Shown piece by piece: positions 108 to 29,458 of a DNA stretch of 38,704 nt. The position numbers and the translations under genes are program-made. Origin of the DNA: Acholeplasmatales bacterium (lineage in GTDB: Bacteria > Bacillota_I > Bacilli_A > Acholeplasmatales > Anaeroplasmataceae); the NCBI GenBank assembly GCA_016288855.1, contig JAEELJ010000080.1:1-38704 (forward strand), given 5' to 3'. The notes under the pieces were generated by a model, which did no database searches, was not told the DNA's origin, and worked only from the letters and a program-made list of their open reading frames with translations. Numbering within the stretch: position 1 is the stretch's first letter; each line of letters starts with the position of its first letter.

Positions 108-1465
108 TTGCTAAATAACACATATTTTTTTATTTTCTTTTTAGTCTTGGTATTTTAGAAATATCAACTCTTCCTATAGGTTCATCACCATTAATGACAT
201 ACATTATCCTATTTCTAAAATAGTAGAAGCTGTTACAACCATAGGATATTTTTTTGATTTCTTTAATTCTATTATTTTTGCCTTCAAGATAAGCGTTATT
301 TAGTCGTCTATCTCCAAAGCGAATATAAGAATTACCTATTTCATCAAACCAACGTTCAAACATTTTACTAACTGTAATAAACTCTTCAAATTCAGAGTCT
401 CTGAATAATTCTATGATTTCTTTTAATTCTTTAGCTCTGGTTTCAAAATGTATTGATTTATCTTTATCAATAAATTGTTCTTTCAAATCATATGCATATT
501 GTAAATCCTGATTTATGGATAAATAATCGCTAATTATTTCTGAAGTAAAAGTTTTACATTTTCTATAAGGATTATACTGATGATACTCCTCTAAATCTGA
601 CGATGGTTTAATATAAAGATGCCAGTATTTTTTGAGTAATCTATATTCTTTAGAATTATTTGGTAAAGTGTTCATGATTCTTATTCTAACTTTGTCACAA
701 GCATCATAAACATATCTAGCAAAATGAAAATGATCAATAATATGAATAGCGTTTGGTAAAAAAGTTTTTCTGATAGTTCTATATGATTCGTACATGTCAG
801 AAATGAAATATTTTACGTTATCTCTTTCCTTTATATCAATGCTGAAGAAATAGTCATTTAATGTTTCTAAACGCCTAGATTCAATAATATCAATTATTCT
901 AGGCCTAGTTGGATCTAGAAGAACCGCAGCATATTTACCACTTTGAGATTTTAGATTCTTGAATTCATCAATGCATACAACATCAGTAAGTTTATGTCTT
1001 TCAATAGATACATAACTTTCAAAAATATTATAAACGGATTGAACAGATAAATTATATTTAGCAGCTATAGTTGATAATGAAACATCAAATTTAAGATCAT
1101 TTAAAATAAGCAATTTTAGATGAGATGAAATAGATTTTTTAGGTTCAATAATAGAAGTAGAATCTTGAAATATATGTGAACAGTTTTTACATTTAAATTT
1201 ATGAATTTTTAATATAAACTTTGTTTTATAATCTGGGAATACTTTATCTAAAATATTTTTATAGTAATAACCATGTTTGATTATATGTTTTGATTTACAT
1301 ACATCACAAATATATTCATCTTTAGGTTTTAAATAAGCTTTAAAAATAATTAAATTTTCAAAAGTATCCTTAGACTCAATGATGATACGTTCATCTTTGA
1401 AAATATCATCATATGGATTATAATTATTTACGGGTATCCCTTCTTTCCATAGTGTTATCTAGCAA
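108..1465 (-). mobile_element. Probable ISL3-type insertion sequence
   Basis: The transposase frame is bracketed by a short inverted repeat: TTGCTAAATAACAC at 108-121 and, on the other strand, TTGCTAGATAACAC at 1452-1465 (13 of 14 match). This gives an element of about 1.36 kb, within the normal ISL3 size range. I see no clear 8-base target duplication outside these ends, so the true termini may lie further out. Both flanks carry GTTGGTAGGT repeats. Confidence 0.55.
130..1431 (-). CDS. ISL3 family transposase, start codon unclear
   Basis: Cut-and-paste DDE transposase of the ISL3 family. The reading frame is open from a stop at 1459-1461 down to 130. Its N-terminal part has a zinc-binding pattern: CDVC at about 1297-1308 and CKNC at about 1180-1191. 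The catalytic part shows D in CIDEFKN, D in FISDMYES and E in YLEGKNN. These are residues 49, 106 and 277 when counted from the TTG at 1111-1113. No ATG, GTG or TTG lies in frame upstream of that TTG, and starting there would delete the zinc finger. An AGAAGGG ribosome-binding-like sequence (minus strand, near 1438-1445) precedes the sequence coding VNNYNPYDD, where a start would be expected, but the codon there is GTA. The original start may have mutated, leaving a non-canonical start or a silent copy. The family call is firm and the start is not. Confidence 0.85.
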   Translation of the reverse strand, partial: VNNYNPYDDIFKDERIIIESKDTFENLIIFKAYLKPKDEYICDVCKSKHIIKHGYYYKNILDKVFPDYKTKFILKIHKFKCKNCSHIFQDSTSIIEPKKSISSHLKLLILNDLKFDVSLSTIAAKYNLSVQSVYNIFESYVSIERHKLTDVVCIDEFKNLKSQSGKYAAVLLDPTRPRIIDIIESRRLETLNDYFFSIDIKERDNVKYFISDMYESYRTIRKTFLPNAIHIIDHFHFARYVYDACDKVRIRIMNTLPNNSKEYRLLKKYWHLYIKPSSDLEEYHQYNPYRKCKTFTSEIISDYLSINQDLQYAYDLKEQFIDKDKSIHFETRAKELKEIIELFRDSEFEEFITVSKMFERWFDEIGNSYIRFGDRRLNNAYLEGKNNRIKEIKKISYGCNSFYYFRNRIMYVINGDEPIGRVDISKIPRLKRK

Positions 1466-1668: not shown

Positions 1669-2772
1669 ATGAAGGGCTTATATATACATATACCATTTTG
1701 CAAAAATATTTGTAGCTACTGTGACTTTCCTAAAATGGTATCTTCTGATTGTATAAAAACTAAATACGTTTCTAAGCTTATAAAAGAAATCTCATCATAT
1801 AAGAAACATTTTAAAGAAATAGATACAGTATTTATAGGCGGAGGGACTCCAAATTCACTATCCTTAGAGCTTTTAGAAAAAATATTTATATCTATTGATG
1901 ATGTATTAAAAAACTCAAAAGAATCAACAATAGAATTAAATCCAGAGCTTATAACATATGACCTATGTGCGCTTCTAAAAAAATATAATTTTACAAGAGT
2001 ATCTTTAGGAATAGAATCCATAAAAGAAGAAACAATTAAATTAATTAATAGAAGTCATAATAAAAAAATGGTAATTGACTCAATAAAACTGCTAAAGGAT
2101 TTTGGAATCAATAATATCAATTGTGATTTTATATTTGGATTCCCATATGAGGATATGAATGATATTAAAAATAATTTAGATTTCATTAAATCACTTGATA
2201 TTACTCATGTATCATATTATTCATTAATTTTAGAAGATAAAACTGTTTTTAAATACCAATATGATAAAGGCCTATTAAAACTCCCAGATGATGATTTAGT
2301 TGCTGATATGTATTATTACATAAAAAAAGAATTAGAAAACATGGGATACCATCATTATGAAATATCTAATTTTGCTAAAAATGGATATTATTCATTACAT
2401 AATCTAAAATATTGGAATTGTATAGAATATATAGGTTGTGGTTTGGCTGCGGCAGGGTATTTATCTGAAATAAGATATGAAAATTGCTCAAAAATGAAAG
2501 ATTATTTAGAAAATGATATTGTAATCATAGATTCAATAAAAATCGAAAATATCGATAAAAAGAAAGAATTTATGATGATGGGATTAAGATTAGTAGATGG
2601 TGTAAGCCAGAATAAATATTTTGAATTATTTAAAAATGATTTACTAACTGATTTCAAAGATGAAATAGAAAGACTATTAAAAAAGGACATTATAGAAATA
2701 AATGGGGATAAGATAAAAATTAAACCTGATAAATTATTTTTAGCTAATGTTGCATTTAGGGAGTTTGTATAA
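1669..2772 (+). CDS. hemW: HemW-like radical SAM heme chaperone
   Basis: Radical SAM protein of the HemW family (formerly annotated as oxygen-independent coproporphyrinogen oxidase), which in studied members binds heme and passes it to target proteins. The radical SAM cluster motif is C11-x3-C15-x2-C18 followed by DF, and the SAM-binding GGGTP is at 57-61. The length of 367 residues is normal for HemW. True coproporphyrinogen dehydrogenase (HemN) is longer, with a different N-terminus. The start has a TAAGGAG site 9 bases upstream. The last base of its TAA stop is the first base of the xerD ATG, so the two are translationally coupled. No heme-synthesis genes are nearby, so physiological heme use is not shown here. 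Confidence 0.88.
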   Translation: MKGLYIHIPFCKNICSYCDFPKMVSSDCIKTKYVSKLIKEISSYKKHFKEIDTVFIGGGTPNSLSLELLEKIFISIDDVLKNSKESTIELNPELITYDLCALLKKYNFTRVSLGIESIKEETIKLINRSHNKKMVIDSIKLLKDFGINNINCDFIFGFPYEDMNDIKNNLDFIKSLDITHVSYYSLILEDKTVFKYQYDKGLLKLPDDDLVADMYYYIKKELENMGYHHYEISNFAKNGYYSLHNLKYWNCIEYIGCGLAAAGYLSEIRYENCSKMKDYLENDIVIIDSIKIENIDKKKEFMMMGLRLVDGVSQNKYFELFKNDLLTDFKDEIERLLKKDIIEINGDKIKIKPDKLFLANVAFREFV

Positions 2773-3716
2773 TGAGAAAAAAAGAAGATGAAAATAAAAT
2801 AGAATTTTATGAAATATCTAACTTTAAATTCTATTTAGAAGATGATATGGGTTCTCCTATAAACACAGTCAATGCGTATATATCTGATTTAAGACAATAT
2901 CAAGATTTTTTAGTAAAATATGAAAATATAAATGATGTTTCTGAAATAACAAGAGAGGATATATTAAGATATATTGAATCATTAAAAAGAAAGGATTTAA
3001 GTAAAACATCTATTGCAAGAAAAATAACTGCAATAAAAGATTTTCATAGATATTTATGTAAAGAAGAAAATATAAGAGACAATCCAGCATTGCTAATTGA
3101 TAATCCAAAACCTGATAAGCCACTACCTGTTGTTTTATCAAAGGATGAAATAAATAAAATGATTTCATCAATAGATCAAGAGGATGTTTTATCTATTAGA
3201 AATAGAGCAATGATGGAATTATTATATGCAGCAGGATTAAGAATTACTGAATTATTAGATTTAACAGTAAGAGAATTACATCTAAAAGAAAAATATGTAT
3301 CAGTTATTGGTAAGGGTGATAAGGAAAGATTAGTACCTATAGGAGATATGGCTGTTTCATATGTTAGAAAATATGTTGAACACGCACGACCTATATTAAT
3401 GAAGGATAAGAATACTTTCTTATTATTCTTCAACTATAAAGGTGAAAAAATGTCTAGACAAGGCTTTTTTAAATATATTAAAAAGCTTGCTATAGATAAT
3501 GGTATAACTAAAAATATATCACCACATACTATAAGACATAGCTTTGCAACACACCTTCTTGAGGGTGGTGTTGATTTAAGAATTGTTCAAGAGCTATTAG
3601 GACATGAGGATATATCTACAACACAAATTTATACACATATTGATAAATCTAGACTTAAAGAAATGTATGATGAAACTCACCCACTTGCAAAAAGAGGTGA
3701 AGATGATGACATTTAA
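2772..3716 (+). CDS. xerD: Site-specific tyrosine recombinase XerD
   Basis: Tyrosine recombinase that, normally with XerC, resolves chromosome dimers at dif. The N-terminal SAM-like core-binding domain (about 14-100) is followed by the catalytic domain with the full residue set: R157 (AAGLRITE), K181 (GKGDKE), H252 and R255 (HTIRHSFATH), H278 (LGHED) and nucleophile Y287 (QIYTHI). The length of 314 is slightly above the usual 295-300, with an acidic extension at the C-terminus. It overlaps hemW by one base and deoB by about 11 bases. A xerD gene directly before deoB matches the Bacillus subtilis ripX-drm order, which favours XerD over XerC. The predicted dif lies less than 5 kb downstream. 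Confidence 0.9.
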   Translation: MRKKEDENKIEFYEISNFKFYLEDDMGSPINTVNAYISDLRQYQDFLVKYENINDVSEITREDILRYIESLKRKDLSKTSIARKITAIKDFHRYLCKEENIRDNPALLIDNPKPDKPLPVVLSKDEINKMISSIDQEDVLSIRNRAMMELLYAAGLRITELLDLTVRELHLKEKYVSVIGKGDKERLVPIGDMAVSYVRKYVEHARPILMKDKNTFLLFFNYKGEKMSRQGFFKYIKKLAIDNGITKNISPHTIRHSFATHLLEGGVDLRIVQELLGHEDISTTQIYTHIDKSRLKEMYDETHPLAKRGEDDDI

Positions 3717-4887
3717 AAGAGTTTTTTTAATTGTATGTGATTCATTAGGAATTGGTTCTGATACTGAGGCCATAAATTATGGTGATGATGGAGCAAATAC
3801 AATTAAGCATATTGCAGATAAATTAAATGGTATAAATATTAAAGAAATGGAATCACTTGGAATTGGTAATATCGAAGATATTAAAGGTGTTAAAAGGATA
3901 GAACCAAAAAATGGTTTTTATGGTAAGTGTCATGAAGCATCAGTTGGAAAGGATACTTTAACAGGACATTGGGAAATGATGGGAATAAAGACTATAAAGC
4001 CATTCAAAACTTTTACTAAAAATGGTTTCCCTAAGGAATTAATAGATTTGTTAATTCTAAAAACAGGACATAATATAATTGGAAATTATGCAGCATCAGG
4101 AACTGAAATACTAAAAGAGCTTGGAGAAAAATCTATAAAAAGTGGTGCTATGATTGTGTATACATCAGAGGATTCTGTATTACAGATTGCAGCTCATGAA
4201 AAATATTTTGGATTAGAAGAATTATATAGATGCTGTAATATAGCAAGAGAAATATGTATGGATGAAAAATATATGGTCGGAAGAGTAATTGCAAGACCAT
4301 TTATTGGAGAAGATAAAATGTCTTTTACAAGAACTCCAAATAGACATGACTATGCAGTATCACCAACATCAAAAACAGTATTAGATTCACTAAAAGAAAA
4401 TGGTTATGATGTAATAGCTATAGGTAAAATAAATGATATATTTAATGGTATGGGTATAACTGATTCAATTAAAACAATATCTAACAATGATGGAATGGAA
4501 AAGAATCTAGAATTATTAAATAAAGACTTTATAGGATTATGTTTTACTAATTTAGTTGATTTTGATGCAAAATATGGTCATAGAAGAAATGTTTTAGGAT
4601 ATCATAATGCTATTTTGGAATTTGATAAAGAGCTATCAAAATTAATAAAAAAACTAAAAGATGATGATTTATTAATTATAACAGCTGACCATGGAAATGA
4701 TCCTACATGGAAAGGAACAGACCACACAAGAGAATATGTACCACTATTAGTATATAATAATAAAATTAGTCATGGATCATTAGGCCTAAGAACATCATTT
4801 GCAGATATCGGTGCAACTATCGCAGAAAATTTTAAAGTAAAAAATCCAGGAATAGGAATATCATTCTTAAAAGAAATAACAAAATAA
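3706..4887 (+). CDS. deoB: Phosphopentomutase
   Basis: Interconverts (deoxy)ribose 1-phosphate and 5-phosphate in nucleoside catabolism and salvage. It belongs to the alkaline phosphatase superfamily, with two metal ions. Visible motifs are the N-terminal metal-binding Asp in FLIVCDSLGIG, the phosphorylated-threonine region GKDTLTGHWEMMG, and the C-terminal metal ligands TADHGND and GTDHTREYVPLL. I chose the ATG at 3706 because GAGGTG at 3694-3699 is 6 bases away. The adjacent ATG at 3703 would sit only 3 bases from it. A longer frame starts inside xerD but has no site. About 393 residues is the normal family length. It is the last gene of the hemW-xerD-deoB operon. Confidence 0.93.
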   Translation: MTFKRVFLIVCDSLGIGSDTEAINYGDDGANTIKHIADKLNGINIKEMESLGIGNIEDIKGVKRIEPKNGFYGKCHEASVGKDTLTGHWEMMGIKTIKPFKTFTKNGFPKELIDLLILKTGHNIIGNYAASGTEILKELGEKSIKSGAMIVYTSEDSVLQIAAHEKYFGLEELYRCCNIAREICMDEKYMVGRVIARPFIGEDKMSFTRTPNRHDYAVSPTSKTVLDSLKENGYDVIAIGKINDIFNGMGITDSIKTISNNDGMEKNLELLNKDFIGLCFTNLVDFDAKYGHRRNVLGYHNAILEFDKELSKLIKKLKDDDLLIITADHGNDPTWKGTDHTREYVPLLVYNNKISHGSLGLRTSFADIGATIAENFKVKNPGIGISFLKEITK

Positions 4888-4895
4888 TATGTATT

Positions 4896-4925
4896 ATCAC
4901 TCACTTAAGTGGGTGATTTTTTTAT
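4896..4925 (+). terminator. Terminator after deoB
   Basis: An 11-bp stem, ATCACTCACTT/AAGTGGGTGAT with one G-U pair and no spare loop bases, is followed by a T-rich tail. It ends the hemW-xerD-deoB transcript. Confidence 0.85.
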
Positions 4926-5064
4926 TTATAATACATAATAATTTTTTTATATTTCAGTTATTAATCTAGTTTTTAATACTATTTTGTTAAATAATAAATA
5001 TTCCATATACTTATATAAAATACTATATGTATAAAAATATCATCAAAAAGCAGCAAATTAACAC

Positions 5065-5085
5065 TTTAATATTTAAATATTAAGT
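5065..5085. repeat. 18-bp perfect palindrome, left copy
   Basis: TTAATATTTAAATATTAA at 5066-5083 is a perfect palindrome. The same 18 bases, plus one matching base before and two after, recur at 11929-11949 on the other side of dif. Confidence 0.8.
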
Positions 5086-7360
5086 AAAAAGATATCTGAA
5101 ATCATACTACAAAAAATAGATAATTTCGATTATCAAACTAGTTTTTATAATCACTACACAAATGTATAAATACCAAATATCACAATATCCAAAATTACTT
5201 TAAAGTTGAAATAATTGTAAATTATCACTTATATGCCATTATTTGAGACAAATCGAGACATATAAATGTGTTCAAAATCATATTTCGATGCGTAATAAAT
5301 TCCCTATGTCTTACCATTATATGGTAACAATATAGCAAAATACTCTATCAGCTATACAGGTCATCCCTCAAAAAAATATTTCGAAATCAATCTAGTTTTA
5401 GAAACCATTTAATAATTACAATTCATTGACACAAGAAGTTTTACAAACTACTTGCAAAACAAAATAAAAAGATTAGCATCAAAAAGTATGCTTATTTTTT
5501 CTTATTTTTAGCTTTAAAACAGATATACAATCAAACACTAAGGAATATAGTAAAAACGCAAAAAACGGCAAATTTTAAGGCTTAAATTTAAACAAAAAGA
5601 AGCTTACAAAAGCACCAACTATTTAGAAACCGAATAAAAAAAAGCAGAAGCAAATCAAAATCTAAAAAGAAGAAAATAAGCATTAATTCCAGATTTAAAG
5701 TGTTCATTTAGAATTCAAGTTCATAAACTTATTTAACGAAAATTTATCAATTTTAAGTGCTTTTTTTAAGTTCTCAGAAGTAGTATCAAACTAAAATGAT
5801 TTATCATTTGTCCCAAGTAAAAAAAGCAAAAAATAATCGAAAAATGGTGTCACAAAAGAAAACATTTTTTTAAGCCTTAATGCAAGCATTAAAGACAAAT
5901 GCAATTTTCTATAAAAAAATCTAGGAAAAATCAACTATAAAAGTGTTTTATTTATAAGCACAAAATTTTAGCATTCATTTTAAGCAAAAAAGCAAATTAT
6001 AGATCATAAAAAAATAATGCATTTTTCACCAACAGATTCATGGATTAAGTTCTCTAAATTATCACAGAGTGAGATATCCATCCAATAAAAAAAGTACAAA
6101 TTTAAATGACTAAAAAAGTTTCCTGGAGCATGCTATTTTAATCAGATTTCAATATTCCTTTAGACATTGCGAATAACGCATTTTATTGTATCTCAAAAAG
6201 ATTCCTCTTAACTTTTAAGTTAAGTATAATCAATTTACGAAAGCATAATAAAGCATCAAAATTTCCTATGATTTTTACGCCTGATTTTCGTTCAAATAAT
6301 AGTCAAAAAGCATATAGCTTTAAGTACTATCAAGCAGCACATAATAGTCAAAAAATTTCAGCACACAACTAGTTTTAAAAACAAGTTAAAAGAATATTAT
6401 AATCAAATTAATGTTGTTTAAGTAATTAGATACAATTTAAAAATAAATATGGTTTTTCATTATAAAAAATGCTAATTTTTATGACAAAACGAGATAGATA
6501 ATTATATGCATAATCAACACTAAAAAAACTAACAAAATGTTAGTATTCATTGTAACGAATCGAAGATCGAATATGCATCAAAATCTTCTATTCATTTCAT
6601 ATAAAAATCGAAGCGTAATGATATGTATCATTAGAAAGAGTTCTTATTTAGTTTAAAAATCATGTTACAAAAGCAGTAGTCAAAAGTAAGAATCCCAAAA
6701 GAAAAAAGTTAAAAAATTATCCTTTTCCTAATCTCAAAATCAGCATCAAAAAACAGATAAGAAAATGAATTCAAAAAGATCCAATTGAGCGTTAATCGTT
6801 CATGTCTTTTTATAGCCGTTGGATAAAAATTTCAATATCATAAAGAAAGCTAAATATCAAGATAAAGAAATAGGAAAGAGAAGAATTATATAATAAGAAA
6901 AGAAAAAGAATATATAAGAAAAAGAAATAAATAATAGATAAGCAATAACTATAAAATTCAGAATAATAGTTACAGTTTCAAAAAAAGAATATTAACAAAA
7001 TTGTTTTCAAAATACATACACATCAAAAAACACATTAAAAAGAACCTAACAGAAGAAAAAGAAAAAATTTCAATTTGTATATAGTTTTAAAAACTAGATA
7101 AGTTAAGGAAAAATTATTTACGAAATCAAAGGTAAAAAGTACATAATCTATAATCTAAATTTTCAACATTCAATAAAGAATTTTTCTTGAAAAAAAAGCA
7201 AATAATTTTCGTTGTTAATCTAGTTTAGATAACTAGTTGTTGAGATATCACTATAAGATAAAATGTGCTTTTTCTACAAAATTAAATCAAAAGAAGGAAT
7301 AACTAAATTAAAGTAGCTTTTTTATAAAGATCTAGACTTATATGTATTTCGTACAGAATC

Positions 7361-7389
7361 ATAGGGTATTTTCTATGACCCTATTTTTT
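7361..7389 (+). terminator. Orphan terminator, plus strand
   Basis: A 7-bp stem ATAGGGT/ACCCTAT (7361-7367 and 7378-7384) with a 10-base loop is followed directly by a run of T (7384-7389). No gene lies upstream for 2.4 kb, so it either ends an unrecognised non-coding transcript or is a leftover of a lost gene. Confidence 0.65.
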
Positions 7390-7501
7390 AAGCGAAGTTA
7401 GCAAAACATAGTCATTTAAGAACAAAATGAGGTAGTTTATAATCAAAAACGCCCCATGAACATGTCCATTTGGGTTAATCTGACTTGAAAGCAACGCGTG
7501 A

Positions 7502-7537
7502 AATCATCCAAAAATCTTCTATAATCATCCAAAAATC
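7502..7537. repeat. 15-base tandem direct repeat near dif
   Basis: AATCATCCAAAAATC occurs at 7502-7516 and again, perfectly, at 7523-7537 (21-base period). Its first nine bases recur at 7885-7893 on the other side of dif. The second and third copies are followed by a TTTCGATT stretch. Confidence 0.75.
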
Positions 7538-7610
7538 GTTTTTTCGATTTGTCTGAGCTAAAAATGTGGCAGAAATCACATTTTTCAGCAGTACTTTTGA
7601 GATTAGAAGA

Positions 7611-7835
7611 CTATGTTTAAAAATCACTTATTCACAAAATCAAGCAAACCCCCATCGTTATTGATTATTATGTTGGTTAACATAATATATATTATGATAA
7701 CTTATTTACTTTTTTAGAAACCTTGAAATATGCTTTGAAATATAGTCAAAAACACTATCTGACTATGTTTTTTGGGGTATTTTAGGCGTTTTTAGTCAAA
7801 TAAACTAATTCTTCTACTATGTTTTGACTATGTTT
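7611..7835 (+). repeat. Cluster of ACTATGTTT motifs around dif
   Basis: ACTATGTTT occurs on the plus strand at 7611-7619, 7762-7770, 7816-7824 and 7827-7835, three of them preceded by G. Minus-strand copies lie at 7404-7412 (also preceded by G) and 9639-9647. The 7827 copy is fused to TTTTGACTA, the complement of the TAGTCAAAA word that is also repeated nearby. This pattern looks like protein-binding sites. Confidence 0.75.
7675..7702 (-). other. dif: Chromosome dimer resolution site (dif)
   Basis: Read on the minus strand this 28-bp site is AGTTATCATAA (XerC arm), TATATA (central 6), TTATGTTAACC (XerD arm). It has the standard 11-6-11 layout. Escherichia coli dif has TTATGTTAAAT as XerD arm and CATAA at the inner end of the XerC arm. 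Bacillus and staphylococcal sites share the TATATATTATG core. The XerD arm is the better conserved one here, as usual. A further inverted half-arm TTATGTT lies at 7668-7674. Gene orientation and base skew both change around it, which supports a terminus location. The match is by eye and from memory of known sites. Confidence 0.85.
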
Positions 7836-8175
7836 AACGCATTTCTTTGTTTTTGACAACAAAACGAAAAAGTTGCTTCTTCATAATCATCCATTTCGAT
7901 TCAAATTCCACTTCTGAGCTTAAGCGAGGGAGCCACAGCCAACCCCAAGAGGTCTTAAGCGAAGGATTTAAAAAGGTACTCTTCTTCTACTTCTTCTCTC
8001 CTGGTTGAAGGGGTTCATATGCTGATCTAGTCAAAATAGTATAGCGTTTTCATAGTTTTTCATAATTTTCATGCTATTTCAGACTTTTTTCCCTTATATA
8101 AAGGCTAAATCCAGTTATTATAGGAACATATTATGATTGGTTTTTTGTATATATAAAAACGCTTACTTTTATTAA

Positions 8176-8379
8176 GTGTCATTATTTATGTATATTTAAT
8201 AAAATACGCAAAAATAATGTCATATTATATATTTATAGCTATTTTTAGCACAATATATATAGATTCAAATAATACACTCAATTTATGTAGCATTGCATCC
8301 ATATAGAACCTACCAAATCATTCCTTTTTATTTGCATATTTTGTCATTTTCAATTTGTGTCATTATTTATGTACATTTT
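8176..8379. repeat. 23-base direct repeat, two copies
   Basis: GTGTCATTATTTATGTA followed by T/C-ATTT occurs at 8176-8198 and 8357-8379 (21 of 23 match, 181 bases apart). Both lie downstream of the orphan gene at 8501-9586. They could be binding sites or remnants of a duplicated segment. Confidence 0.7.
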
Positions 8380-8465
8380 AAAAAACGTCGAAATTTTTCT
8401 TTTCGCCTATAAAACGCCTTGAATTATACTATTTTTAGATTTGTATTTATGTAGAAAACAAAAAA

Positions 8466-8488
8466 GACTCATAATTTTCATATGAGCC
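8466..8488 (-). terminator. Terminator of the orphan winged-helix gene
   Basis: On the minus strand GGCTCATA pairs with TATGAGTC (one G-U) around a 7-base loop and is followed by TTTTTT. It lies 13 bases past the stop of the gene that ends at 8501. Confidence 0.8.
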
Positions 8489-8500
8489 TTTAGTATTTTT

Positions 8501-9586
8501 TTAATTATTTTGACCGTTTAGAAGTTCTTCTATTGTCATTTGATTATATGAGCTTTGGAACTGTTCGTTGTGAACTATCTTTGTCCATGATGCCGATCTG
8601 CCTGTTCCATTTGGCTTAATTTTTCCTTCATCTCTAAGTTCAATTAATGCACGTTGTATAGTCGATTCAGAGAATCTAGGACATGCCTTTTTGACATCGG
8701 CTTTTGAGAACGTTTGAGGTAGGTGCATAATAGCTGACATTACTGTATCTTTTTTACCTGTACCATGATCAAAATTCTTGCGTTCAAGCATAGCTTCAGT
8801 TTCTTTATAACCATCAATCATTATCTCAATAAGCTTACCATTTAAATTTTGAGTGTCTGCAAATCCCGTTTCCCACTTGAATCCAGCCTCATCTGTATAA
8901 GTCTGGAACTCTTTCAAATTGTTGTAGTAACACTCAAAGAAACTAATATATTTAAACACATTAAATCTGGACTTAAAAAGTAGGCAATATTCTATCATCA
9001 AAGCCATAAAATCATTATGTTCAGTGAAAATATCTGTATGCAACAAATCCACATATAGGTTTGTGATAGCTTGTGTATCCTCTACCTTTTTGCCATTAAT
9101 AATGTCTTTATACATTTTTAACTCTTTAGCTAATAAATCACGGTTTGATACATTCTTTTTATTCTCCAAGAAGCCTGCTTTTTCATTCTCAACTTGTCTT
9201 GTTTTAAAGTTAATATCTTTAACATCCTGGAATATGATATTTGAAAGCTTTAAGAATTCATTATCATCAATCGTTAATTCTTCGCCTTTATCTTGTACGA
9301 TTCTAAAAATCTTCTTTAGATTCGCTAGCATTTTTTCATCTTTTGTTTTTGGTTCAGAGTCATTTACAACAACTAATCTTTCTCTGTTTTCTTTAACATT
9401 AAGTCCAAATATTTTACCAGCATAAATTGCATCTTTTTCAATAGTATCTTGCACTATGCCTTTCATATAATCAGCAAGCTGCTTTTCGTAGAAAAAATCC
9501 TTGCCTTTATAAGTGTATAATTCAGTCAATGTTTTTACTAACTGAGGAGAGAATGTTATACGACTGATATTTTCCAAACAATTCAT
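8501..9586 (-). CDS. Uncharacterised protein with C-terminal winged helix
   Basis: I do not recognise the family. The 361-residue soluble protein is mostly helical and charged. Residues about 285-345 read as a winged-helix module: a segment beginning TVMSAIMHLPQTFSKADV, then STIQRALIELRDEGKIK, then a GTGRSASWTKI wing. Such modules end many Fic proteins, and the order of the preceding helices is reminiscent of Fic. However, no HPFxxGNGR motif is present, so AMP-transfer activity should not be assumed. The start ATG has AGAGGTGA upstream. It is a single gene with its own consensus promoter and terminator, next to the gene-free dif region. A 9-base word repeated around dif lies in its promoter spacer, which fits autoregulation and binding near dif, but this is inference. 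Confidence 0.6.
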   Translation of the reverse strand: MNCLENISRITFSPQLVKTLTELYTYKGKDFFYEKQLADYMKGIVQDTIEKDAIYAGKIFGLNVKENRERLVVVNDSEPKTKDEKMLANLKKIFRIVQDKGEELTIDDNEFLKLSNIIFQDVKDINFKTRQVENEKAGFLENKKNVSNRDLLAKELKMYKDIINGKKVEDTQAITNLYVDLLHTDIFTEHNDFMALMIEYCLLFKSRFNVFKYISFFECYYNNLKEFQTYTDEAGFKWETGFADTQNLNGKLIEIMIDGYKETEAMLERKNFDHGTGKKDTVMSAIMHLPQTFSKADVKKACPRFSESTIQRALIELRDEGKIKPNGTGRSASWTKIVHNEQFQSSYNQMTIEELLNGQNN

Positions 9587-9804: not shown

Positions 9805-11457
9805 TTATGATTTATCATCGGTGTAGAATATAGAACCACCAATAAATTCTCTTAAAAGTGAATTACATGGAACCCATTTTGATGTTATCGGAAGGTAATA
9901 TTTTAAGAATTTTATCAATCTATTTGCGTCTATATAGCAATCACTTGTAGTAGGTATTTTTTCTAATAGTGGTAATGCATACTCCTTAAGAACTGAAAGT
10001 TCATATCCTAAGTCAGTATTGAATACAAAATCAGCATTATCCTCATATGGATAAATCCACTTAAATTCCCCTGCTCTAACAGAAGGCCAGATATTTAAGG
10101 TTGTTTCTGCAGATGCACCTCTAAATTCATGATCTCTAACTATTCTTCTTACAAGTCTAGCATCAGAAATAGAAATTGGTGTATGATCATCAATTTTATA
10201 TTGCACAACAGGGCATACAAATATTTTATATTTGAAGTTTGAAGGTAATGATGGTGCGATTCTATCATTTAAGCCATGGATACCTTCAATCAATATTGGA
10301 GTTTTATGAGATAATTTAACCTTCTTAGTGAATGTTGTTTCATATGTTTCGAAATTAAATTTAGGAAGAGATACCTCTTCTCCTGAAACTAGCTTTAATA
10401 TAGTCTCATCAAATAACTCAAGATTTAATGCATTGATATGTTCTAAATCAGGTTTTCCAAATTCATCAAGTGGCGCCTCTTGTGGTTTATTATAAAAATC
10501 ATCCATTGAAATCATTAACGGATTAATACCTCTAGACATAAGTTCAATTCTAAGTCTATTAGTAAAAGTTGTTTTACCACTAGAAGATGGACCTGCGACA
10601 AGAATCAATCTAATTTCATCCTTACCACGTTCTATCTCATTACCTAATTCGACTAGCTGTCTTGAAATTAGTGCCTCACTAATGTTGATATATTCTAAAG
10701 CTCTACCAGCTTCAACAAGATGATTTATTTTAGCAATTGTGTCAGTATTAGTAAGCTTAATTGAATTACCAGCAATTTTAAGATTTTGTCTAAATGTCCT
10801 TTCATCCTTAAATTCTGGTATTTCACCATTGTTTTCACTTCTAGGATATTGGAATATAAAACCAGGTGAGTATAATCTAAGATTATAAGCTTTAATAAAT
10901 CCTGTTGATTTTAGCATGTAACCAAACATATAATCCTTAAATCCATCACACTCATAAATATGCACTGTGTCACTTTCACGATATTTTAAAATATCTACCT
11001 TATCATCCCAACCAATACTCTTATAATACTCATAAGCTTCTTCTTTTGAAATTGTAGTTCTTATAATTGGAAGGTCAGATGCAATAATATTATCAAGTTC
11101 TTTTTTTATTTGATCTAAATCATACTGTCCAAAACTATGTCTTAGGTTTGTTACCTCACCATACATACTTTTAGAAACACTAAAGTTAAATGTTATCCTT
11201 GCTTTAGGATCAATTCTCATCAATGCCATTATTATCAAATATCTTAAAGTTGCTCTATAGATTCTTGAACCAGCAGTTGATGTAATATCTAATAATTTGA
11301 TTTCACAATCTGATGAAACAAGATAATCTAATTCTCTTAAAACATCGTTAACAGTACAAGCAAGATATTTATAATCTTTATTCTCGAATAGCTCATATAC
11401 TCTTTTTGGTTCATTAAGAACTATTTCTTTATTCAATAATTTAACGGTAAAACTCAT
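9805..11457 (-). CDS. Nucleoside kinase with N-terminal TGS/ThrRS-like domain
   Basis: Predicted uridine-kinase-family phosphotransferase of about 550 residues. The first 60 residues fit a TGS domain. Residues about 60-220 resemble the second additional domain of threonyl-tRNA synthetase. The C-terminal half is a P-loop kinase with Walker A GPSSSGKT at 289-296, SMDDFY and a second acidic motif within LIEGIHGLN. This fused architecture is a known Bacillota and Bacteroidota family annotated as nucleoside kinase, and its substrate cannot be read from the sequence. GGGGTGA precedes the ATG. It is monocistronic, with a terminator behind it and about 680 gene-free bases in front. An extended -10 (TGGTATAAT, plus 11745-11753) about 290 bases upstream could be its promoter. 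Confidence 0.82.
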   Translation of the reverse strand: MSFTVKLLNKEIVLNEPKRVYELFENKDYKYLACTVNDVLRELDYLVSSDCEIKLLDITSTAGSRIYRATLRYLIIMALMRIDPKARITFNFSVSKSMYGEVTNLRHSFGQYDLDQIKKELDNIIASDLPIIRTTISKEEAYEYYKSIGWDDKVDILKYRESDTVHIYECDGFKDYMFGYMLKSTGFIKAYNLRLYSPGFIFQYPRSENNGEIPEFKDERTFRQNLKIAGNSIKLTNTDTIAKINHLVEAGRALEYINISEALISRQLVELGNEIERGKDEIRLILVAGPSSSGKTTFTNRLRIELMSRGINPLMISMDDFYNKPQEAPLDEFGKPDLEHINALNLELFDETILKLVSGEEVSLPKFNFETYETTFTKKVKLSHKTPILIEGIHGLNDRIAPSLPSNFKYKIFVCPVVQYKIDDHTPISISDARLVRRIVRDHEFRGASAETTLNIWPSVRAGEFKWIYPYEDNADFVFNTDLGYELSVLKEYALPLLEKIPTTSDCYIDANRLIKFLKYYLPITSKWVPCNSLLREFIGGSIFYTDDKS

Positions 11458-12098
11458 ATTTAATCACCCCAATCATTTTTAGCGATTTTTAAAATATATT
11501 TTATATAAATATAAAATAACAAGTAATAATCTCACATAATAAATAGACTTAATCTAACTAACATTTTGTGTTATTTATTCCTTATGTACTTTTTAAAAAT
11601 ATAAAATGCACTTTATTTAATCACTTTAACTAGTTTTCAATACTATTTGTGTTTTGAAATATTTTTTTAGCACCTTATATAGAATCTTCTCTATCGCAAA
11701 ACATGTAGAATATAATTATAAATTATAACTAGTTAATTTTTTATATTATACCACATTCAGAAAAAATTTATAGTGAATAATTGGTTTAATAACCTCTTAA
11801 AAAAATTTGATTTTTAAAATAGTTTTTATTACTATTTTTTATCTATAATAATTTTAAGTATTAGTTTTTAAAACAAGATTGATATTCGAAATTATTTTTT
11901 ATTAGTCAAAAAGACTAATGAGTTCTAATTTAATATTTAAATATTAAGTTCCATTTTTGGCTAAAGTTTAATTTTGATAATAATTATTCATTTTTAGCAA
12001 TCTCGTATTACATACAATTAAATAGCATTGTTTTATTATATAATGTCATTTGAAAAACTATGTAGTCATTCGAAATTGCCTGTTTTAAGCATAAAAAA
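11458..12098. other. Gene-free AT-rich stretch upstream of the kinase
   Basis: About 640 bases without a credible gene. It holds a minus-strand extended -10 at 11745-11753, a CTAGTTTT copy at 11630-11637, a small hairpin TTAGTC-AAAAA-GACTAA at about 11902-11918 that contains a TAGTCAAAA copy, and the second 18-bp palindrome. It shares these motifs with the dif region on the other side of the orphan gene. Confidence 0.6.
11929..11949. repeat. 18-bp perfect palindrome, right copy
   Basis: Identical over 21 bases to 5065-5085. The palindrome proper is 11930-11947. The two copies lie about 2.6 kb left and 4.2 kb right of dif. Confidence 0.8.
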
Positions 12099-29219: not shown

Positions 29220-29453
29220 AAAAAAAGTCCTTAGAAAATAATATTCTAAGGACGAATTATCGCGGTACCACCTTAGTTCTATGAAAAAATAATTCATAGC
29301 ACTCAATTAATCTTTAACGCAGAATACGGGTCTTACTACTAAGCTCATAAAACCAGCTCCATGACTACCTTCTTCATTAAAACCTAAATACTTTCACCAA
29401 ACGTATTCTCTCTTAAAGGTTTAAAATGAATACTCCTTCACTTCAAAGCTTTG
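29220..29453 (-). promoter_or_regulatory. Valine T-box riboswitch
   Basis: Leader RNA that senses uncharged tRNA-Val. The T-box sequence AAGGTGGTACCGCG (minus; plus 29261-29274) and the competing terminator GTCCTTAGA/TCTAAGGAC with a T run (plus 29220-29253) are both clear. Stem I carries AGAGA and GGTGAAAG. The specifier loop reads GGTAGTCA (plus about 29362-29369), where either GTA or GTC would be the specifier triplet, and both are valine codons. That agrees with valS being in the operon. Confidence 0.95.
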
Positions 29454-29458
29454 TTAAT

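Follow-up and report, generated by a model that had tools for sequence, protein, structure and literature searches.

Only two unrelated chromosomal replication fork traps, Tus-Ter and RTP-Ter, are described in reviews, each of them in few bacteria, and the reason for the existence of fork traps is debated (PMC10331603, PMC13220808). In both systems ter sites are found in the terminator's own promoter, and dif lies between the innermost ter sites (PMC10331603, PMC13220808). Here we describe the dif region of an Acholeplasmatales bacterium (GenBank assembly GCA_016288855.1), analysed in a window of 38,704 nucleotides that is one whole contig (JAEELJ010000080.1), together with the corresponding loci of relatives.

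The polar elements that surround dif in this family resemble RTP-Ter of Bacillus subtilis in being asymmetric imperfect inverted-repeat sites of about 30–40 bp arranged in two opposed groups around dif, and in having a winged-helix candidate protein, Orf361, whose gene adjoins dif and whose operon carries sites in its promoter region. They differ in that the family has no RTP homolog, Orf361 being a 361-residue Fic-fold protein, and in that the array reaches only about 5–6 kb to either side. The elements do not appear recognisable as copies of the RTP consensus. With Tus-Ter of enterobacteria the locus shares polar sites in two opposed groups, dif between the innermost sites and a candidate terminator gene near a site; in contrast, no Tus was found in 40 relatives, and the sites are far nearer dif and partly palindromic.

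An ordinary XerC/XerD dif site at the terminus

The first-pass annotation of the window had proposed a dif site at 7675–7702 with the 11-6-11 layout of XerC/XerD sites, and inspection of the sequence bore out both layout and coordinates: the plus strand reads GGTTAACATAA-TATATA-TTATGATAACT and the minus strand AGTTATCATAA-TATATA-TTATGTTAACC (Table 1). The XerD arm is, as described, close to known arms (TTATGTTAA). A search of the bacterium's own genome (1,770,187 bases in 88 contigs) that allowed up to 3 mismatches found this site with 0 mismatches and a single other place with 3, leaving 7675–7702 as the lone good match. Matches were found in 53 of 60 relatives, many at 0–1 mismatches, and the site is conserved across the order; in the genus 3 of its 28 positions vary among 18 aligned loci, and the XerC arm (AGTTATCATAA) is nearly palindromic. 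An additional TTATGTT half-arm at 7668–7674, which the annotation had singled out as unusual, is present in the window but missing at that place in relatives, the closest (L048) included. The significance attached to it did not hold up, and a third Xer arm was rejected for want of conservation, the sequence being private to this genome.

Table 1. Features of the dif region in the window
Feature	Position	Strand	Remarks
xerD	2772..3716	+	TIGR02225, 354 bits
Intergenic island around dif	4888..8500		deoB–orf361 interval; composition changes from A-rich to T-rich at dif
Polar element	5373..5413	+	XerD side; matrix 28.7 bits, R1 23.2
Polar element	6350..6390	+	XerD side; matrix 39.0 bits, R1 31.3
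Polar element	7062..7102	+	XerD side; matrix 42.4 bits, R1 37.4
Polar element, weaker	7201..7241	+	XerD side; matrix 20.4 bits, R1 20.2
TGTGAATAA, DnaA-box-like	7628..7636	-	Fixed distance beyond XerD arm, conserved across order
dif	7675..7702	-	XerC arm 7692-7702, central region 7686-7691, XerD arm 7675-7685
Two GAAGAAG (KOPS-type)	7981..7996	-	XerC side, pointing to dif
orf361	8501..9586	-	Degenerate Fic-fold protein, C-terminal putative winged helix; candidate element binder
udk-like nucleoside kinase	9805..11457	-	Upstream gene of probable udk-orf361 operon
Polar element	11625..11665	-	XerC side, upstream of udk, facing dif; matrix 34.7 bits, R1 26.4

The xerD gene, about 4 kb from dif, scores over the TIGR02225 cut-off; a second recombinase on a different contig has XerC as its top match yet stays under the equivalog cut-off, and an FtsK with a gamma domain is encoded as well, so that an XerC-like recombinase, XerD and FtsK gamma are all present in the genome. 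Three closely spaced phage-integrase-type genes (L005–L007, G000:C56) lie on another of its contigs. The site shares with the CodV/RipX-dif system of B. subtilis the 11-6-11 layout, the conserved XerD arm, the terminus position, XerC/XerD homologs and FtsK gamma, but differs in the near-palindromic XerC arm of the genus and in motifs at fixed positions on both sides.

Genes to the right of dif are mostly on the minus strand, as first described; to the left, the reported plus-strand orientation holds for hemN, xerD and deoB but not for a far-left ISL3 transposase on the minus strand. This ISL3-family gene occupies window positions 130–1113, near the contig end. The reported change of the plus strand from A-rich to T-rich is also seen, the cumulative AT skew of the window peaking at 7654, adjoining dif. 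Its cumulative GC skew peaks away from dif, at 4856; the A-richness of the non-coding stretch from 4.9 to 7.6 kb is not matched by G-richness, which accounts for this position. With the genome split into 88 contigs, of which the window is one in full, long-range skew was tested on relatives. Cumulative GC and AT skew peaks lie 310 and 67 bp from dif in 410 kb of a family member (G028, on a 665-kb contig), and 179 and 193 bp from dif in 100 kb of a genus member (G003). The skew inflection expected at dif thus falls within about 300 bp of it in two relatives. The sole best genome match, order-wide conservation, skew inflection in relatives and the encoded XerD, XerC-like and FtsK gamma proteins together support, on sequence grounds, the original assignment of a genuine, ordinary XerC/XerD dif marking the terminus.

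The heptamer GAAGAAG is the KOPS of Lactococcus lactis (PMC6466248). In the 410 kb around dif of G028 it has a strand bias of 173:13, ranking first of 3792 7-mers, and its strand preference switches at dif. Within the intergenic island of the first 21 loci, the XerC side has a count of 40:0, and there are recurrent copies near positions −94 and −295 relative to dif. The heptamer is identical to that of L. lactis and converges on dif here, and it is predicted to be a KOPS-type motif recognised by FtsK gamma; the difference from L. lactis is that it sits in an XerC/XerD genome and has these two recurring copies.

Further short motifs lie at fixed distances in the 100 bp past the XerD arm across the order, namely TnnTGCG, a DnaA-box-like TGTGGATAA and AAATTTCGGCTTCT, also seen at L069–L075 and L118–L127. 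The clearest of these signals is TGTG[GA], which 34 of 47 loci from the order have at +30 to +52 (background frequency 1.6%), in several of them within a perfect DnaA-box complement (TGTGGATAA). On the XerC side the genus has the motif CATAnTCAAA at fixed places around −130 and −65 from dif, represented in the window by CATAGTCAAA copies on the minus strand at about 7760–7840. Both groups of motifs may be accessory sites for the control of Xer recombination, a reading to which we give somewhat less than an even chance and which is compatible with the explanation preferred below: the frequency of TGTG[GA] and the fixed positions in the genus argue for it, but a chromosomal dif usually works without need of accessory sites. 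An RNA explanation was rejected, no Rfam family being found near dif and only a T-box elsewhere. This T-box leader (RF00230, 147.7 bits) lies at 29245–29455 on the minus strand, upstream of an acetyltransferase-like ORF and valS.

A 41 bp polar element confined to the terminus

A k-mer analysis of the gene-free islands surrounding dif found ATCTAGT/ACTAGAT enriched on the XerD side. Reading out the copies gave an asymmetric 41 bp consensus, AAAAAATTTCRAAnnnTATCTAGTnTTnAAAACTAGATA, in which an AAATTTC half lies 14 bp away from a 21 bp imperfect palindrome, on one side. The copies differ in sequence, and what they share ends at about 41 bp; there are usually 3–8 per locus, within about 5 kb of dif, throughout the family. 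We found no description of the element in open-licence papers, and as far as that literature shows the array looks undescribed.

A sequence-only profile (R1) was made from 50 copies with the window excluded. Run against eight whole genomes at E≤0.05, it returned 75 matches, of which all except three fall close to dif on the contig that carries it; of the three, two are overlapping readings of a single palindrome in the bacterium's own genome and the third is a weak match in a relative. At E≤1e-4, in a search of 60 relatives that scored only first-pass best candidates in mostly metagenome draft assemblies, 30 genomes matched; these cover the seven genera of the family, bar one known from a 63%-complete genome, and outside the family there were only two partial matches. 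An R1 search across 149 genomes of the class likewise returned, beyond the family, partial, palindrome-only matches and nothing more. With a weight matrix at ≥20 bits, the family loci have 127 sites within 6 kb of dif, 0 in 184 kb farther out and 0 in 470 kb of control DNA. The matrix found no such elements near dif in two other families of the order, and neither k-mer enrichment nor repeat search found a comparable repeat family in the remaining ones; a weak TACTAAACT motif in one other family was set aside as partly coding.

The elements are strongly polar with respect to dif. Within 2.5 kb of it, 84 of 87 (matrix ≥20 bits) face dif and 3 do not, and in a held-out test, with a genus-only matrix applied to the window and to eight genomes from other genera, all 44 of 44 face it. 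To exclude selection bias in orientation, sites were also chosen by their symmetric core only: 121 such sites lie within 6 kb of dif and 1 beyond, and their TTTC half is dif-distal in 89 cases against 8. By interval, the ratio of elements facing dif to those facing away is 18:0 between orf361 and dif and 68:4 between dif and deoB. Elements are intergenic, the promoter region of the udk-orf361 operon included, and none lies inside udk or orf361 in the family loci. The polar array around dif is real, and statistically very strong.

It is very improbable that dif is simply an ordinary dif and the elements a small mobile or decaying repeat piling up in gene-poor terminus DNA. The region is indeed AT-rich and non-coding and the copies vary in sequence, but sites, orientation and location are kept across genera despite diverged intergenic surroundings, other intergenic DNA has no sites, the shared sequence stops at about 41 bp, and the conserved polarity speaks strongly against such a repeat.

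The elements might instead act on SMC, as polar roadblocks or unloading sites, or organise the terminus at the septum, in the manner of XerD-SMC unloading or of MatP. Their restriction to the terminus around dif suits this, and terminus proteins acting on SMC are known in other bacteria; on the other hand, the elements have no sequence in common with the XerD arm, and an organiser such as MatP needs no strong polarity towards dif. MatP sites are symmetric palindromes and are scattered across hundreds of kb. We consider these roles unlikely.

Orf361 and the conserved gene neighbourhood

The gene adjoining dif on the XerC side, orf361, is found there in the family loci with enough sequence, its products showing 33–88% identity. 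Four families of the order preserve the arrangement parE-parC / udk / orf361 / dif / deoB / xerD / hemN; dif has a different location in a fifth, where parE-parC-udk-orf361 are still together. In one family (L069–L075, L108–L117) dif has moved away from parC-udk-orf361: three genomes show a separation of 15–20 kb, and a further one a separation of 285 kb.

A profile search matched residues 8–335 of Orf361 to a Fic-family protein of Bordetella bronchiseptica (8uqu, E=2e-32), and its AlphaFold model (mean pLDDT 86) aligns with 8uqu at a TM-score of 0.90 by target, placing Orf361 in the Fic fold. Homology and fold are thus shared with 8uqu over this range; the differences are linkage to dif in the family and the absence of the Fic motif HPFxxGNGR, which is missing from ten orf361 sequences, the window having DIFTEHNDF instead. 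Orf361 is probably catalytically dead, and its C-terminal elements in the model fit a winged helix.

Upstream of udk there are 42 elements, 33 facing dif and 9 facing away, clustered at about −90 to −200 and some of them forming inverted pairs. This grouping, and the predicted winged helix of Orf361, would suit operators through which Orf361 or another regulator controls the udk-orf361 operon and its neighbours, the position next to dif being inherited synteny. Most copies, however, lie between dif and the convergent end of deoB (the 68:4 interval), kilobases from any udk promoter, and element orientation flips at dif. We regard this reading as distinctly unlikely, and an operator role restricted to the promoter was rejected because it leaves the dif-deoB orientation unexplained.

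RTP and Tus were searched for by profile. RTP (PF02334) had no match in the family, with weak sub-cutoff matches in only two genomes of another family, and Tus (PF05472) was found in 0 of 40 relatives; identity of the array with RTP-Ter or Tus-Ter was rejected, neither protein having been found.

A putative fork trap around dif

The loci carry multiple polar sites in two opposed groups that flank dif and are confined to the terminus, which is the arrangement of a fork trap. Opposed polar groups, a linked protein of DNA-binding type and sites in its promoter are hallmarks of fork traps, as in Tus and RTP. We put at about even the chance that dif is surrounded by a narrow, replication-fork-trap-like array of polar elements bound by a protein, most likely Orf361; the protein binding, fork arrest and autoregulation that this entails are what we infer, while dif, the elements, their restriction to the terminus, their polarity and the synteny are direct observations. 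XerCD and FtsK would resolve dimers at dif in the usual way, while the 41 bp elements on both sides would be bound by a protein with sequence specificity, for which the adjacent pseudo-Fic/winged-helix Orf361 is the likeliest candidate. A fork heading to dif would meet the A-tract/TTTC half first and pass; a fork past dif would meet the palindromic half first and be stopped or slowed, and forks would thereby meet next to dif. By analogy with RTP, the strong subsite may be the palindromic half, which a fork overrunning dif would encounter first. Through the copies upstream of udk the binder would also be able to control its own operon, in the manner of Tus and RTP.

Some observations count against this explanation. 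On the XerC side of dif the window has a single strong element, at a distance of 3.9 kb, and the inverted pairs upstream of udk (9 of 42 elements facing away) are more in keeping with a promoter operator than with a barrier to forks. The skew turn within about 300 bp of dif suits a fork trap, but a sharp skew change at dif also occurs in chromosomes without one. Furthermore, orf361 is also present in other families of the order that are without elements; gene presence is thus no predictor of site presence, and Orf361 as the binder is a lead only.

Significance

That the family related to Anaeroplasma and Acholeplasma has a third, independently evolved chromosomal fork trap, made of 41 bp polar sites and a probably dead Fic-fold winged-helix terminator, is a tentative proposal, to which we lean somewhat less than halfway. 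If true, this third and very compact trap, tied to dif, would mean that selection has repeatedly favoured the confinement of fork fusion to dif. It would also provide a testable system in which sites, candidate protein and polarity are predicted beforehand, and Orf361 would stand as a rare example of a Fic-fold protein lacking the active-site motif and possibly serving as a DNA-binding chromosome factor. For this family of gut and rumen bacteria, the array around dif would be an apparent trap for the replication machinery.
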